Origin: Halobacteriales archaeon SW_9_67_25
Lineage (GTDB): Archaea > Halobacteriota > Halobacteria > Halobacteriales > Haloarculaceae
Reading direction: 5' to 3'
Assembly: GCA_003022745.1 (NCBI GenBank)
Contig: PXSU01000132.1
Coordinates: forward strand, 1-10,122
DNA: 10,122 nt
Below are positions 2,276 through 7,188 of this stretch, one piece after another. How positions within the stretch are numbered: the first letter of the stretch is position 1; every line of letters begins with the position of its first letter. The notes beneath the pieces are model-generated. The model was not told the origin of the DNA. It ran no database searches and saw nothing but the letters and a program-made list of their open reading frames with translations. The position numbers and the translations under genes were made by a program.

Positions 2276-2347
2276 ATGATAGGAACGGGGAAACGCGAGC
2301 GACGGAGTATCGCACGACGGACAGCCGGCCGGGGTGACCGCGCATGA
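2276..2347 (+). CDS. Possible 23-codon leader ORF overlapping the nrdJ start
   Basis: An ATG at 2276, about 9 nt after the predicted transcript start, opens a 23-codon frame rich in Arg (beginning MIGTGKRERRSIARR) whose TGA stop overlaps the nrdJ ATG as ATGA. That is the classic geometry for translational coupling. No Shine-Dalgarno site precedes it, although near-leaderless initiation is common in haloarchaea. It may equally be chance in a 75-nt leader; the peptide resembles nothing I know. Confidence 0.25.
   Translation: MIGTGKRERRSIARRTAGRGDRA
2333..2337 (+). promoter_or_regulatory. Shine-Dalgarno site deciding the nrdJ start
   Basis: GGTGA, complementary to the CACCU-type 3' end of archaeal 16S rRNA, sits 6 nt before the ATG at 2344. 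It supports that ATG as the nrdJ start and fits a transcript with a real leader, unlike the leaderless neighbours. Confidence 0.6.
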
Positions 2348-5300
2348 GCCAGCACGTTGACGCGGGCGAGATCACCCTGCCGATAAAACGCACAGAGGGA
2401 GACACGCTGGAGGAGCGGCTTACCGACAACGCCTACTACAACATCCTGCCGGCACGCTACCTCCGCAAGGACGCCAACGGGGACGTGGCCGAAGCCCAGG
2501 AGGACCTCTTCGACCGCGTCGCGAAGAACATCGCCCTCGCGGAGGCGGTCTTCGAGGCAGACAACGAGGACATCGAGGTGACGGTCACGCCAGACCAGCT
2601 CAAGCCCGACCACCCCCGCCGGGACGAACTCGCCGCGGAGGTGTTCGGGACGGGCACCACGGCCGCGGACGACGTCGAGACGGCCCTGACGGAGTACAAC
2701 GTCAACAAGTTCGCCTACGAGACCGTGGTGCCGGAACTGCCCGAGGTGGTCCGCGAACACGTCGAGGAGACTGCCGCGGACTTCCGGGCGGCGATGGAGG
2801 ACCTCTCGTTCATGCCGAACAGTCCGACGCTGATGAACGCGGGCGACGAACTCCAGCAGCTCTCGGCCTGTTTCGTCGACTCCCCCGAAGACGACATAGA
2901 CAACATTCATCAAACAGCTAAGGAAGCCGCACAGGTCTTCCAGTGTCTGATTGCCGACACACACGTCCACGTCGACGGGAAAGGTGTGGTATCCATCGCA
3001 GACGTCGAACCAGGTGACGAAATCCGGCAACGTGACGGTGACGGGCATCGAACCCAGCGCGTCGAAGAGACCCATGCCTACGACGACGCGCCGGTCGCTC
3101 GCCTCGAAACCGAGGCGGGAATCGACCTCACCGGGACGCCAAACCACGAACTCCTCGTTGACGGGGAGTGGACACGGATCGACGAGATCGAGTCCGGCGA
3201 CACCCTCACCGTGCGACTCGGCTGGCTCCCGGATGCAGACGAGACGACAGAACTGACGTCAGTCGCGTCCGGCGGGCGGTGGACAGAGGCTCGGACCGTC
3301 TCCAACGACGCGATCCTCGAACTGTACGCCGAGGGACACTCTGACTACGAGATTGCGGCGGAACTCGGTGTCCACGCCACGAGCGTCGGACAGTATCGAC
3401 AACAACAATCCCTGGAACCCAACGGACAGCCGGTCAAGGCCGTCACGCAGCCGACGCAACTGACCACCGACCTCGCGGAACTGGTCGGCATGTGGGTCGG
3501 CGACGGATCGAAACACGAGGACGGGATTCGGTTCCACCTCAACCGCGAGGAGAACCTCGAACACGCGGACCGGCTCTGCCGGCGGCTGTTCGACGAGGGC
3601 CTCGACTGGCGGTGGGACGAGGGCTGTTACGACGCCGTGTTACACAGCCACGAGATCAAACGCTGGTGGCTCGCCAACTTCGGCGACGCGAAACCGGACG
3701 CGGCGTCTGCCAGTGTTCCCGAGCAGGTCTGGCGGGCGGACCACGAGACGGTCGCCGCGTTCCTGCGAGGCCTGTTCTCGACGGACGGGAGCCTACAGAA
3801 AGAGCAGTATCCCAGGCTGTGGACCGCCTCGGAGGACCTGCTCGATGGCGTCCAGCAGCTCCTCCTCGGTCTCGGTATCCCGGCGATGACCTGGGAGTAC
3901 GACTCCGAAGACCGCGAGTATTACAACGTCGGTCCGACCGGCGAGGTCGGATTGTGCAGCTTTGCGGATTGGGTCGGATTCATCGACGCTCGCGACGACG
4001 AGATAGCCAGGACTCTCGACGAGACCACGTTCCGGGGAACGACCGTTGGGACGGTTCGGGACGACACCTGGGAGGTGCCGGTGGAGACTGTCGAGGAGGT
4101 CGGGACCAGCACCGTCTACGACGTAACTGTCGCTGACGATCCCGAGTACGTCGCCAACTCCGTCGTTTCGCACAACAGCGGCGGCGGAATGGGCTATGCA
4201 TTCTGGCGATTACGGCCCTACGGAGATCCTGTTGGAAGTACAGGAGGTATTGCGTCAGGTCCCATCACGTTCATGCGGACCTACGACCAGATGTGCGAGA
4301 CCATCGCCCAGGGTGGCGCCCGGCGGGGCGCCCAGATGGGCGTGATGCGCGTCTCGCACCCCGATGTCATCCAGTTCATCCACGCCAAGAACAAGGACGT
4401 CTCGCTTGCTCACACCCTCCGGCTGAACGACCCCGACGACTTCACGCACAACTCCTTCGCCGACGCCCTGGAGGAGGCCCGCGAACTCATCGACGACGAG
4501 GGCCGGGTTCCCAAGCACCTCCGGAACGCCGTCGAGGGACACCTCTCGAATTTCAACATCTCCGTGGGCGTCACCCACGACTTCATGGAGGCCGTCAAAG
4601 AGGGCGAGGAGTACACCTTCACCAGCCCCCGGACTGGCGAGCCCCACGTCGCCACCGAGCAGACCGTCGAACTGTACGAGATGTTCGACCTGGGGGAGTA
4701 CGTCGAGGCCGGCGAGGTGCTCTCGGTGCCCGCGGAGGAAATCTGGGAGCGCATCGTCGAGGGTGCCCACGAGAACGGCGAACCCGGCGTCATCTACCTG
4801 GAGCGGGTCAACGACGAACACTCCTTCGACGTTGAGGCCCACCCCGGGCACCGCATCCTCGCGACCAACCCCTGCGTGACGGGCGAGACGGAAATCGCGC
4901 TCGCCGACGGCACGACCGAGAGGATGGCGACGCTGGCGGAGAACGGACAAGATGTGCGCGTCCTCTGTCGGAACACCGAGACGGACGAGCTGGCAGTGAA
5001 AGTCGGCCGAAACCCGCGACAGACGCGTGCGGACGCCGACCTGGTTCGTGTCGAGACGGATGATGGAACCACCCTCACGTGTACGCCCGACCACGAGGTC
5101 TGGACGCCGGAGGGCTACGTCGAAGCTGGCAGCCTCTCGGCCGGCGACACGATCGTCGGGACGACCGCCGTCGTGATTCCTGCAGGGACCGTCTCCGAGA
5201 CGGTTTCGGAACGACTGACGGTCACGTCTGTGAGCGACGCCGGTTCCGCACCCGTCTACAACATCACGGTCGACGACCACCACAACTACCTCGCCATCAC

Positions 5301-7188
5301 CGAGGGAGACGACGACGCTCCCTTCGTGAGCGTCGCGAACTGCGGCGAGCAACCGCTGGAGGAGTACGAGGCCTGCAACCTCGGACACATCAACCTCTCG
5401 ACGCTTGCGGCCGAGGACGCGCCGGACTGGCGGGTCTGGGCCGACCGGCATACCGGCGAGTACGACTCGCAGGCCGGCGCCATCACCGCGTTCCTGGAGG
5501 CGGCCGTCGACTGGGAGGAGTTCGACCGGCGCATCGAACTCGGGACCCGCTTCCTCGAGAACGTGGTCACGATGTCCGATTTCCCGGTCGACGAAATCGA
5601 ACAGACTGTCCGGGAGATGCGCAAAATCGGGCTGGGCATCATGGGCTTGGCCCAGCTGTACATCCAGCTGGGCATGAAGTACGGCAGCGACCCCGCAAAC
5701 GAGGTCGCCCGCCAGCTGATGACCCACATCAACCACCACTCGAAGTGGACGAGCCACGAACTCGCCACCGAGCGTGGCTCCTTCGCGGAGTGGGACAACT
5801 CCAAGTACGCCGACCCGACCGCCTATCGGGAGTGGTTCGAGGGCCAGACCGGCCTCGACGCCGAGGAGTGGGCCGACGGGTTCGCCATCCGAAACCACAA
5901 TACGACAACAATCGCCCCTACCGGGACCACCAGTATGGTTGGAAATACGACAGGTGGTTGTGAACCCATCTACAACGTCGCCTACTACAAGAACGTCTCC
6001 GACGACGTGCAGGGCGACGAGATGCTCGTGGAGTTCGACGACTACTTCCTGCGGGTCCTGGAGGCAAACGACATCGACGTCGAGGCGGTCAAGGAGGAAG
6101 CCCAAGAGCAGATGGCCGAAAACGAGTTCGACGGCATCGACGGGCTCACGTCGGTGCCCGACGCCATCGGCGAACTGTTCGTCACCACGGGCGACCTCTC
6201 CGCGAAGGAACACGCGGGCGTCCAGACGGCCTGTCAGGAAGGGGTAGACTCGGCGATCAGCAAGACCGTGAATGCGCCCAACGACTCGACCATAGAGGAC
6301 GCCAAGGAGGTCTTCCAGTACATCTACGACCACGGCGGGAAGGGCGTCACCTACTACAGGGACGGCACCCGCTCGAAGCAGGTGCTGACGACGCGAGCGA
6401 AAAATACCGAGTTCGCAGACGAGGCCGAGGCGGCGGAGGCGCTGGTCGAGCAGATCGAGGAGGTCTTCGGGAGCATCGAGGCCTTCGCCGAGAGCGAGGA
6501 GGTCCGTGCCGTCGTCGACGACCAGGTCGCCGAGGTGCTGGGCTCTGTCGACGGGCGCGAGGAGTTCGCCCAGAAGCGCGACCGGCCGGACGTGTTGCGG
6601 GGCGTCACCCAGCGAATCGACACCGGCTACGGGAAGCTGTACGTCAACATCAACGAGGACCCCGAGGCCGACCGGCCCTTCGAACTGTTCGCCAACATCG
6701 GCAACTCCGGCGGGTTCACGGCCTCGTTCACGGAGGCGCTGGCGAAGACCATCTCGACGGCGCTTCGCGCGGGCGTCGACCCCCGGGAGATCGCCGAGGA
6801 ACTGCAGGGCATCCGGTCGCCGAAGGTCGCCTGGGACAAGGGCGAGCAGATCCAGTCCATCCCGGACGCCATCGGCACGGCGATGCGCCGCTATCTGGAG
6901 GGCGACATCGAGCGGGCCTACCCGCAACAGCAGACCTTAGAGGAGACCGCCGAAGACGCCGAGGAACCCGAGTCCCGCGGGGAACGCGACGCCACCCCGG
7001 GACCGGACATCGGCGGCGTCGAGCCCGAACCCGAAGCCGACGGCGGGGCCGCGGCCGCAGCCGACAGCGACCAGCAGTCGCTGGTCGAGGCCGGTGAGAG
7101 CCCGGAGTGTCCGGAGTGTGGGTCGCTGTCGCTGTACTACTCGGAGGGCTGTAAGACCTGCGAGTCGTGTGGCTGGTCGGAGTGCTGA
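2344..7188 (+). CDS. nrdJ: Class II (adenosylcobalamin-dependent) ribonucleotide reductase with two inteins
   Basis: The 1614-residue precursor reduces ribonucleotides to deoxyribonucleotides in the cytosol by a B12-generated thiyl radical, after both inteins leave (exteins about 1047 residues). Seen in order: an N-terminal reductase domain without a recognisable ATP cone; redox Cys176 in LSACFV; intein 1 (201-611); SGGGMGYAFWRLRP; QGGARRGAQMG; NP (842-843); intein 2 (844-999); thiyl Cys1000 and Glu1002 in CGE; redox partner Cys1011 in YEACNLG, the same 11-residue spacing as Cys408/Cys419 in the Lactobacillus enzyme; PTGTTS (1192-1197); an acidic insertion (about 1370-1410); a TSCPD domain (about 1415-1500); an acidic linker; and a C-terminal ribbon with Cys 1589, 1592, 1603, 1606, 1609 and 1614, probably metal-binding or relaying electrons. 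No small radical subunit gene is nearby, as expected for class II. It likely heads an operon with the two genes downstream. Confidence 0.97.
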   Translation: MSQHVDAGEITLPIKRTEGDTLEERLTDNAYYNILPARYLRKDANGDVAEAQEDLFDRVAKNIALAEAVFEADNEDIEVTVTPDQLKPDHPRRDELAAEVFGTGTTAADDVETALTEYNVNKFAYETVVPELPEVVREHVEETAADFRAAMEDLSFMPNSPTLMNAGDELQQLSACFVDSPEDDIDNIHQTAKEAAQVFQCLIADTHVHVDGKGVVSIADVEPGDEIRQRDGDGHRTQRVEETHAYDDAPVARLETEAGIDLTGTPNHELLVDGEWTRIDEIESGDTLTVRLGWLPDADETTELTSVASGGRWTEARTVSNDAILELYAEGHSDYEIAAELGVHATSVGQYRQQQSLEPNGQPVKAVTQPTQLTTDLAELVGMWVGDGSKHEDGIRFHLNREENLEHADRLCRRLFDEGLDWRWDEGCYDAVLHSHEIKRWWLANFGDAKPDAASASVPEQVWRADHETVAAFLRGLFSTDGSLQKEQYPRLWTASEDLLDGVQQLLLGLGIPAMTWEYDSEDREYYNVGPTGEVGLCSFADWVGFIDARDDEIARTLDETTFRGTTVGTVRDDTWEVPVETVEEVGTSTVYDVTVADDPEYVANSVVSHNSGGGMGYAFWRLRPYGDPVGSTGGIASGPITFMRTYDQMCETIAQGGARRGAQMGVMRVSHPDVIQFIHAKNKDVSLAHTLRLNDPDDFTHNSFADALEEARELIDDEGRVPKHLRNAVEGHLSNFNISVGVTHDFMEAVKEGEEYTFTSPRTGEPHVATEQTVELYEMFDLGEYVEAGEVLSVPAEEIWERIVEGAHENGEPGVIYLERVNDEHSFDVEAHPGHRILATNPCVTGETEIALADGTTERMATLAENGQDVRVLCRNTETDELAVKVGRNPRQTRADADLVRVETDDGTTLTCTPDHEVWTPEGYVEAGSLSAGDTIVGTTAVVIPAGTVSETVSERLTVTSVSDAGSAPVYNITVDDHHNYLAITEGDDDAPFVSVANCGEQPLEEYEACNLGHINLSTLAAEDAPDWRVWADRHTGEYDSQAGAITAFLEAAVDWEEFDRRIELGTRFLENVVTMSDFPVDEIEQTVREMRKIGLGIMGLAQLYIQLGMKYGSDPANEVARQLMTHINHHSKWTSHELATERGSFAEWDNSKYADPTAYREWFEGQTGLDAEEWADGFAIRNHNTTTIAPTGTTSMVGNTTGGCEPIYNVAYYKNVSDDVQGDEMLVEFDDYFLRVLEANDIDVEAVKEEAQEQMAENEFDGIDGLTSVPDAIGELFVTTGDLSAKEHAGVQTACQEGVDSAISKTVNAPNDSTIEDAKEVFQYIYDHGGKGVTYYRDGTRSKQVLTTRAKNTEFADEAEAAEALVEQIEEVFGSIEAFAESEEVRAVVDDQVAEVLGSVDGREEFAQKRDRPDVLRGVTQRIDTGYGKLYVNINEDPEADRPFELFANIGNSGGFTASFTEALAKTISTALRAGVDPREIAEELQGIRSPKVAWDKGEQIQSIPDAIGTAMRRYLEGDIERAYPQQQTLEETAEDAEEPESRGERDATPGPDIGGVEPEPEADGGAAAAADSDQQSLVEAGESPECPECGSLSLYYSEGCKTCESCGWSEC
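2896..2943 (+). other. AT-ending codon tract left of intein 1 (putative co-conversion tract)
   Basis: Of 16 host codons immediately before the intein, 8 end in A or T (for example ATA, ATT, CAT, CAA, ACA, GCT), whereas surrounding nrdJ codons almost always end in G or C. The bias continues into the first part of the intein. Confidence 0.65.
2944..4176 (+). mobile_element. Intein 1 of NrdJ: 411 residues with LAGLIDADG homing endonuclease
   Basis: Precursor residues 201-611, inserted between QVFQ and SGGGMGY. It starts with Cys201 (block A, CLIADTHVHVDGKG), has block B TPNHELLV, block F VYDVTVADDPEYVA and ends VVSHN before the +1 Ser, so all splicing residues are present. Two dodecapeptide motifs, LAELVGMWVGDGS (377-389) and AAFLRGLFSTDGS (471-483), keep the acidic residues Asp387 and Asp481, so the endonuclease looks intact. 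Between the N-terminal splicing part and the endonuclease lies a helix-turn-helix (about 320-352). Such inteins excise from the protein and can home into empty alleles by cutting them. Flanking host codons are atypical, suggesting recent homing. Confidence 0.95.
3301..3399 (+). other. Helix-turn-helix module inside intein 1
   Basis: Residues 320-352 read as a short HTH: ILELYAEGHSDYEIAAELGV followed by HATSVGQYRQQ. The pattern (helix, DYEIAAELGV turn, recognition helix) is that of resolvase or sigma-like HTH domains. It lies between block B and the first LAGLIDADG motif, so it may add DNA contacts to the endonuclease. The call rests on pattern alone. Confidence 0.6.
4177..4260 (+). other. AT-ending codon tract right of intein 1 (putative co-conversion tract)
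   Basis: Of the 28 host codons right after the intein, 17 end in A or T, including TTA, CGA, ACA and repeated GGA. In the next 40 codons (4261-4380) only 2 do. The sharp edge at the insertion site fits donor DNA copied in along with the intein during homing. Confidence 0.7.
4873..5340 (+). mobile_element. Intein 2 of NrdJ: 156-residue mini-intein before the radical cysteine
   Basis: Precursor residues 844-999, interrupting NPCGE so that the +1 residue is the catalytic thiyl Cys1000. Block A is CVTGETEIALADG, block B LTCTPDHEVWTPEGY, block F VYNITVDDHHNYLA, and the end is FVSVAN before Cys. There is no endonuclease: only a short linker joins the splicing halves. The penultimate residue is Ala where His is usual; several inteins with other residues there still splice, with other residues helping Asn cyclisation. 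Flanking host codons are normal, in contrast with intein 1, which fits an older, immobile insertion. Removal is needed for any reductase activity. Confidence 0.93.
5890..5964 (+). other. Third AT-ending codon tract at the PTGTTS loop, no intein present
   Basis: Of 25 codons (residues 1183-1207) covering the conserved HNTTTIAPTGTTSMVG and TTGGCE segments, 14 end in A or T; in the following 34 codons only 1 does. The tract resembles those around intein 1 but is uninterrupted. It may mark a site once occupied by an intein, or a segment replaced by recombination. Confidence 0.55.

Follow-up and report, generated by a model that had tools for sequence, protein, structure and literature searches.

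Silent A/T-ending codon tracts at occupied and vacant intein sites of haloarchaeal nrdJ: candidate lasting marks of homing-endonuclease activity

The stretch of DNA analyzed here (the window, 10,122 nucleotides) is an entire contig of about 10 kb, C132 of 178, from a draft haloarchaeal genome that is 57% complete. It carries the gene nrdJ (Table 1), whose product matched the Pfam domains PF02867, PF00317 and PF12637 and scored 676 bits against the model TIGR02504 NrdJ_Z, for which the cut-off is 400. The gene is interrupted by two inteins, parasitic inserts that self-splice. In haloarchaeal nrdJ, inteins recur at five positions, namely extein 200 (site a), 239 (a'), 432 (b), 627 (c) and 740 (d). 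Upstream of nrdJ, a fusion open reading frame, which we take to be anthranilate/aminodeoxychorismate synthase-like, contains a 30-base in-frame tandem duplication at about positions 1425-1484 (AAVYAYGGEV twice), near the glutaminase cysteine. Elsewhere, two nrdJ-like matches about 13 kb apart were seen in one genome (G029:C1:977550-979511 and 990911-992869).

Intein 1 was matched by PF14890 and PF14528, both over the cut-off, and has same-site homologues in other haloarchaea. It begins with CLIADT and ends with VVSHN followed by serine, and thus has Cys1, a C-terminal His-Asn pair and a +1 Ser. From its splicing domain, terminal residues and endonuclease domain, it is predicted to be a LAGLIDADG homing intein. 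Most of its relatives (forms of 463-466 aa) contain two tandem helix-turn-helix-like units, while intein 1 has one. In the alignment, the inteins of 411-413 aa (the window, L160 and L063) appear to be one such unit short by deletion; a single shared deletion was rejected as the origin of these forms, since the three deletions differ in their breakpoints. Open reading frames about 30% identical to most of intein 1 also occur outside the nrdJ match (G359:C1:110233-111420, G395, G203, G330 and others). Intein 2 scored over the cut-off of TIGR01445 and just under that of PF14890. The first-pass annotation had described it as lacking an endonuclease; the profile search found no LAGLIDADG match in intein 2, only splicing-type domains. 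In most relatives occupied at site b, the resident inteins are 350-373 aa long.

Table 1. Features of nrdJ in the window.
Feature	Position	Strand	Description
nrdJ ORF	2344..7188	+	adenosylcobalamin-dependent (class II) ribonucleotide reductase; two inteins inside
Left A/T-codon tract	2896..2943	+	8/16 codons A/T-ending; sister codons identical 7/15
Intein 1	2944..4176	+	site a, extein position 200; 411 aa; LAGLIDADG endonuclease domain
Single HTH-like unit in intein 1	3313..3402	+	HTH_23 match below its cut-off; alignment
LAGLIDADG_3 domain of intein 1	3745..3975	+	PF14528, 63 bits
Right A/T-codon tract	4177..4260	+	17/28 codons A/T-ending; sister codons identical 11/26
Intein 2	4873..5340	+	site b, extein position 432; 156 aa mini-intein
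Third A/T-codon patch	5890..5964	+	14/25 codons A/T-ending; no intein; straddles site c, vacant in the window

Recounting gave exactly the numbers of A/T-ending codons that had been reported beside intein 1 (8/16 on the left and 17/28 on the right, against 2/40 just downstream of the right tract). Just before the left tract the count is 4/40, and across the exteins it is 123/1047. Together, the two tracts hold 25 A/T-ending codons in 44; when the extein codons were shuffled 10,000 times, the highest count reached by a window of this length was 18. The third patch, absent from the first-pass annotation, surrounds site c, which lies between positions 5925 and 5926 and is occupied in L133, L142, L147, L148, L159 and others. 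Around intein 2, 1/16 codons on the left and 3/28 on the right are A/T-ending.

The nearest species (G001, locus L004; referred to as the sister) has an intein-free nrdJ, and in a tree of the rest of the gene (29 rows) the window and the sister were joined at 100. At positions with the same residue, the two genes have identical codons in 608/764 cases outside the tracts, compared with 18/41 in the tracts at site a (p = 1e-6 against the rest of the gene) and 11/26 at site c (p = 5e-5 against the same). The jump in synonymous divergence predicted by the first-pass annotation was therefore found. The sister itself has 2/16, 2/28 and 1/25 A/T-ending codons in the left tract, the right tract and at site c, respectively. 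On the left of intein 2, 9/17 codons are identical to those of the sister (p = 0.014), and on the right 17/20 (p = 0.78). Since this left flank is GC-ending yet unusually diverged from the sister, the normal flanks attributed to intein 2 are normal in A/T content only.

The site a tract adjoins the insertion site and differs from the intein-free sister; nonetheless, two codon blocks are common to both. In the right tract, the sister shares TTR at Leu211 (13/97 genes) and AGY at Ser220 (15/97 genes), a combination seen in only 4/97 genes (the window, the sister, L158 and L162). Because of these shared blocks, an origin before the split is probable for part of the haplotype at site a, and tract a could have arisen by silent change towards A/T within a background common to both genes. 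After the split, either the sister drifted back to G/C-ending codons or the window shifted to A/T. Codons shared with an intein-free relative had been named as evidence against gene conversion, and the sister answers to this in part: it lacks most of the A/T third bases but has the TTR and AGY blocks. When the gene was scanned for windows in which a distant gene most beats the sister, three of the top eight were at a, b and c, one was near a' (extein 248), one near d (718), and three (328, 46 and 516) were away from any site.

The best matches to tract a are those of Halorhabdus amylolytica (L133, 86%, occupied) and L161 (85%, empty), followed by L139 (84%) and L158 (83%), both occupied; the sister is at 82%. 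By raw identity, alleles bearing an intein at site a account for 3/4 of the best tract matches in one comparison and 4/5 of the best others in another. The first 17 extein codons to the right of intein 1 (codons 200-216) differ from L133 at 2 of 51 nucleotides. In the intein tree, however, intein 1 grouped with the inteins of L134, L063, L137, L160, L132 and L242 (SH-aLRT 93), apart from Halorhabdus, and the flanks of these six inteins have 0-4/16 A/T-ending codons on the left and 3-10/28 on the right. The tract tree, which has few columns and is subject to composition pull, joined the window to alleles of the Halorhabdus group and to some A/T-rich genes (95, 98). In an AU test of tract a on 29 selected rows, a grouping with the intein kin came close to rejection (p-AU 0.07), and one with the sister was not rejected (0.71). 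The trees disagree and the intein kin have mostly GC-ending flanks; the expectation that the tract phylogeny would follow the intein donor found no clear support. Apart from the window's own, no intein more than 76% identical to intein 1 was found in 392 genomes of the order and 146 of the family, nor in a scan of named genome contigs (11 loci). A protein search with the intein 1 region likewise gave at best 76% identity, the window's own apart, among the best 120 of 293 proteins, so that no recent donor is in hand. Viral contigs scanned with intein 1 contained no relative, in a scan that detects close relatives only.

At site c, codons 628-639, which start one codon to the right of the site, have a single mismatch in 36 nucleotides to L132 and likewise to the halovirus locus L217, a 100-kb contig (IMGVR_UViG_3300003631_000001) that is 86% identical to the window at c and 67% in the rest. 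A serine in this stretch is encoded by AGT in the window, L132 and L217 and by TCG in the sister. At c, the nearest rows are halovirus L217, L132, L183 and L134. In the AU test of site c (33 chosen rows), placing the window with the sister alone was not rejected (p 0.15), and placing it with the genus cousins gave 0.039. The case for a replacement after the split is better here, since the serine block differs and the grouping of the window with its genus cousins has p 0.039; the c patch was probably acquired once the window and the sister had diverged.

A pattern search of the viral collection for the site-c stretch returned the L217 contig only. Haloviruses were rejected as a general source of the tracts, as 12/14 viral loci are only 66-72% identical to tract a. 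The lowest values were those of L220 (58%) and HRTV-13 (61%), and most loci are within about 5 points of their identity over the remainder of nrdJ. The exceptions are L217 and L216, with 84-86% at c. Halovirus nrdJ (L217, L216, L220) is close to the cellular gene, with 68-79% identity in exon 2. By alignment, insertions were also seen in these viral genes, one of 365 aa at site b in L216 and one of 429 aa near extein 158 in L220.

To score patches across genes, the third-base A/T content of 20-codon windows was compared with the expectation from amino acid and gene (z); in nrdJ, a patch was counted as being at a site if the strongest window was at most 25 codons from a, a', b or c. The nrdJ set comprised 97 genes. 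Left out were 23 locus ids (second copies or cut loci), viral genes and genes covering 900 extein residues or fewer, including L160, the host of the closest full-length intein. L185 was kept despite its badly aligned first part, and 11/73 pairs, those with L185, were dropped from the synonymous-mismatch scan described below. Genes with a third-base A/T content of at least 30% were excluded from the patch test (nrdJ 6/97, mcm 6/40, polB 6/48, atpA 1/30 and EF-2 1/30). For mcm and polB, the 30 loci returned per search were combined with 20 hand-picked split intein-bearing genes, and 42/50 and 49/50 loci, respectively, passed the filter. The final patch counts omit two duplicate mcm genes and one duplicate polB gene, which remain in the matched-conservation, profile and substitution tests. 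The atpA and EF-2 sets were confined to the 30 top-scoring loci each, with split ones left out.

In 35/44 nrdJ genes with z of at least 4, the strongest patch coincided with an intein site (null 0.22), which in 27 of the 35 was vacant; with the window itself removed, the count was 34/43. Part of the nrdJ set had been chosen from searches favouring A/T tracts at a and c; in relatives not picked by tract, the strongest patch was at a site in 13/20. The mcm and polB genes of 58 genomes provided new data for testing the nrdJ pattern. At the same threshold, the strongest patch was at an intein site in 19/19 mcm genes (null 0.22), 15 of them vacant there, and in 21/21 polB genes (null 0.20), 16 of them vacant. 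Patches with z of at least 6 were present in 18/91 nrdJ, 11/34 mcm and 12/42 polB genes and in none of atpA or EF-2. These two genes are rarely invaded (atpA is interrupted in 3/58 genomes and EF-2 in 1/58, as read from split matches) and reached z of at least 4 in 2/29 and 6/29 cases, respectively. The split matches suggest P-loop insertions in atpA of G004, G019 and G032 and an insertion near the P-loop of aEF-2 in G041.

When windows were matched for conservation, the strongest was at a site in 35/36 nrdJ, 17/17 mcm and 21/21 polB genes (nulls 0.59, 0.59 and 0.21). At the P-loop of EF-2, the strongest window was found in 7/29 genes (null 0.03), as were two of the six patches with z of at least 4; this excess is compatible both with an effect of inteins and with one of the motif as such. 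At the atpA P-loop, the corresponding numbers were 3/29 (null 0.10) and 0/2. Amino-acid-corrected synonymous mismatch between the nearest nrdJ relatives was highest at codons 421-437 (b, 1.73-fold), 204-220 (a, 1.45) and 245-261 (a', 1.40); the window ranked fourth (122-138) is off-site, and 183-199 (a) and 625-641 (c, sixth) follow. Jointly, the four sites were matched by 14/5,000 random site sets. Taken singly, their ranks of 830 were 13 (a), 66 (b), 110 (a') and 244 (c), and only a stands out. In b-vacant alleles of several families, the left flank reads CAT AGA ATA CTT GCA ACA AAT or a close variant; the highest A/T-ending count in this flank is 18/20 (L141).

Over all site instances, patches with z of at least 3 were present at 84/490 vacant and 17/136 occupied sites (p = 0.24), where vacant refers to the present state only; the overall excess at vacant sites is not significant. 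Since patches are about equally frequent at both, the mark belongs to the site rather than to the intein that occupies it. For nrdJ alone, mean scores were slightly higher at occupied sites (0.91 vs 0.61, p = 0.02). The codon pair GCA-ACA before site b was found in 17/59 empty and 1/38 occupied alleles, and AGY at Ser629 (site c) in 27/87 empty and 0/10 occupied alleles. The mean A/T excess reaches about 12 codons on each side of a site, with the longer shoulder on the left. Transitions and transversions showed no bias (159:133 in patches vs 910:725 elsewhere), and deamination-type mutation was rejected as the source of the patches on this ground. Codon-block switches made up 88/311 changes in patches vs 549/7100 elsewhere, and 32/112 vs 287/1744 for serine alone; a serine switch between TCN and AGY takes more than one silent mutation. 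Carriers of a patch at the same site did not share the choice of A or T beyond background, which argues against a single donor haplotype. One spreading haplotype was rejected accordingly, although particular stretches are shared.

The tracts are real, lie at insertion sites and contain A/T third bases that are mostly not in the sister, and patches of this kind recur across haloarchaea at occupied and vacant intein sites of nrdJ, mcm and polB. Our reading of the sequences, which we consider somewhat probable, is that homing-endonuclease activity left the tracts beside intein 1 and around the vacant site c as durable traces, which are not a timestamp of the intein now in place. A homing endonuclease would cut vacant alleles, and the break would be repaired from a diverged homologous template, the copy of another cell or of a virus, with or without an intein. 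Such repair would replace some 10-30 codons on each side. Templates that mismatch the target would survive best, so that recoded flanks would accumulate; as the third bases of the host genes are nearly all G/C, a replacement would become visible as A/T-ending codons. Of the possible causes, repair by gene conversion after cutting appears the likeliest; selection for targets that escape cutting comes close to it as a competing or contributing process. Co-conversion around intein 1, as initially proposed, thus stands in part: the A/T bases mostly absent from the sister, the jump in divergence, the mostly intein-bearing nearest tracts and the patches at sites of three genes speak for it. A more tentative extension, possible rather than probable, is that the silent A/T scars at vacant sites of haloarchaeal genes for replication and nucleotide metabolism were made by endonuclease-driven conversion and kept by blunting further cutting, which would make them both a record of invasion and a form of host immunity, partly exchanged with viruses.

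If vacant alleles had been recoded by selection for escape of the target site, the patches would be resistance alleles and not conversion tracts. Most strong patches are indeed at vacant sites, the GCA-ACA pair at b and AGY at Ser629 track vacancy, the patches vary by lineage, and codon-block switches add mismatches. However, counted per site, occupied alleles carry patches about as often and in nrdJ score slightly higher, and site a of the window is both occupied and recoded. The excess of about 12 codons on each side is also wide for the target of a LAGLIDADG enzyme. Moreover, in the excerpted text on H. volcanii polB the authors state that such endonucleases tolerate single silent changes (PMC3024317). 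We regard escape as an unlikely account of the patches. The proposal that recent homing brought intein 1 together with both flanks from an AT-ending donor appears more doubtful still. It agrees with a tract that adjoins the intein on both sides, with the intein-bearing alleles L133, L139 and L158 among the nearest tracts and with the absence of intein 1 from the sister, but the closest kin of intein 1 have flanks of mainly GC-ending codons, uncommon codon blocks are common to the sister, the closest intein among the matches listed is 76% identical, and the vacant site c is marked alike. Given the mismatch between tract and intein, the shared blocks, the mark at vacant c and the similar patch frequency whether sites are vacant or occupied, the tract does not demonstrate the recent arrival of intein 1 by horizontal homing that the first-pass annotation had suggested. 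Tract a probably started to form while the window and the sister were still one lineage, and it gives little information on the arrival date of the intein now resident there.

Mutation linked to the break itself, through repeated cutting and error-prone repair, would lead to a gain of A/T since the gene starts out G/C-saturated, and is consistent with patches that occur at vacant and occupied sites alike and differ per lineage. The lack of a transition bias, the enrichment of serine TCN/AGY switches and the part of the c patch common to L132 and a virus argue against it, and we hold it to be slightly less probable than recent homing. Selection on codons or DNA at catalytic motifs, where inteins merely insert too, would agree with the 59% of conservation-matched windows that are near a site in nrdJ and mcm and with the EF-2 P-loop excess. 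Yet conservation-matched windows still favour the sites, the atpA P-loop is no hot spot, and an insertion near the EF-2 P-loop is present in 1/58 genomes, which makes this explanation very improbable. An assembly chimera might be suspected since the window spans an entire 10-kb contig and the draft genome is 57% complete, but the patches are short and two-sided, strong patches are also found in one-contig genomes (L140 of G004, nrdJ, z 7.8; L342 of G031, polB, z 9.4), and protein cluster P0001 includes a contig of 7,872 bases, a size unlike that of the window; such an artefact is improbable in the extreme.

Co-conversion beside homing elements is established. In the excerpted text on the angiosperm cox1 group I intron, one loss is inferred in which the tract was kept, and in Solanaceae the tract is present in 17/17 intron-bearing and 0/55 intron-free genes (PMC3192709). 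The tracts described here resemble that system in their silent third-base differences beside the insertion point of a homing element; unlike in cox1, intein patches are about equally frequent at vacant and occupied sites, and the tract parts from the element's nearest kin. For Halobacterial rir1, the intein alleles rir1-b, -g, -k, -l and -m have been described, and the likeness lies in the same kind of host gene and group, several sites per gene and horizontal spread within the class; neither "synonymous" nor "flank" appears in its main text (PMC4071816). In Haloferacales mcm, according to the excerpted text, vacant MCM-d sites resist invasion, probably via proline (PMC10643990). There too, the sequence beside the insertion point is not the same in vacant as in occupied sites and co-conversion of the flank is inferred, but in contrast to the silent changes in nrdJ, a serine-to-proline replacement is the presumed block to splicing, and cutting continues. 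In the open-licence PMC literature, we recognized no description of silent A/T marks at vacant intein sites.

If our reading is true, the homing cycle of invasion, fixation, degradation and loss would be readable from silent codons at sites that are now empty, which would be useful in GC-rich genomes where the presence or absence of an intein tells nothing of the past. It would also allow a direct test of silent host-gene resistance to homing endonucleases, and would caution against dating a resident intein by its A/T flanks.
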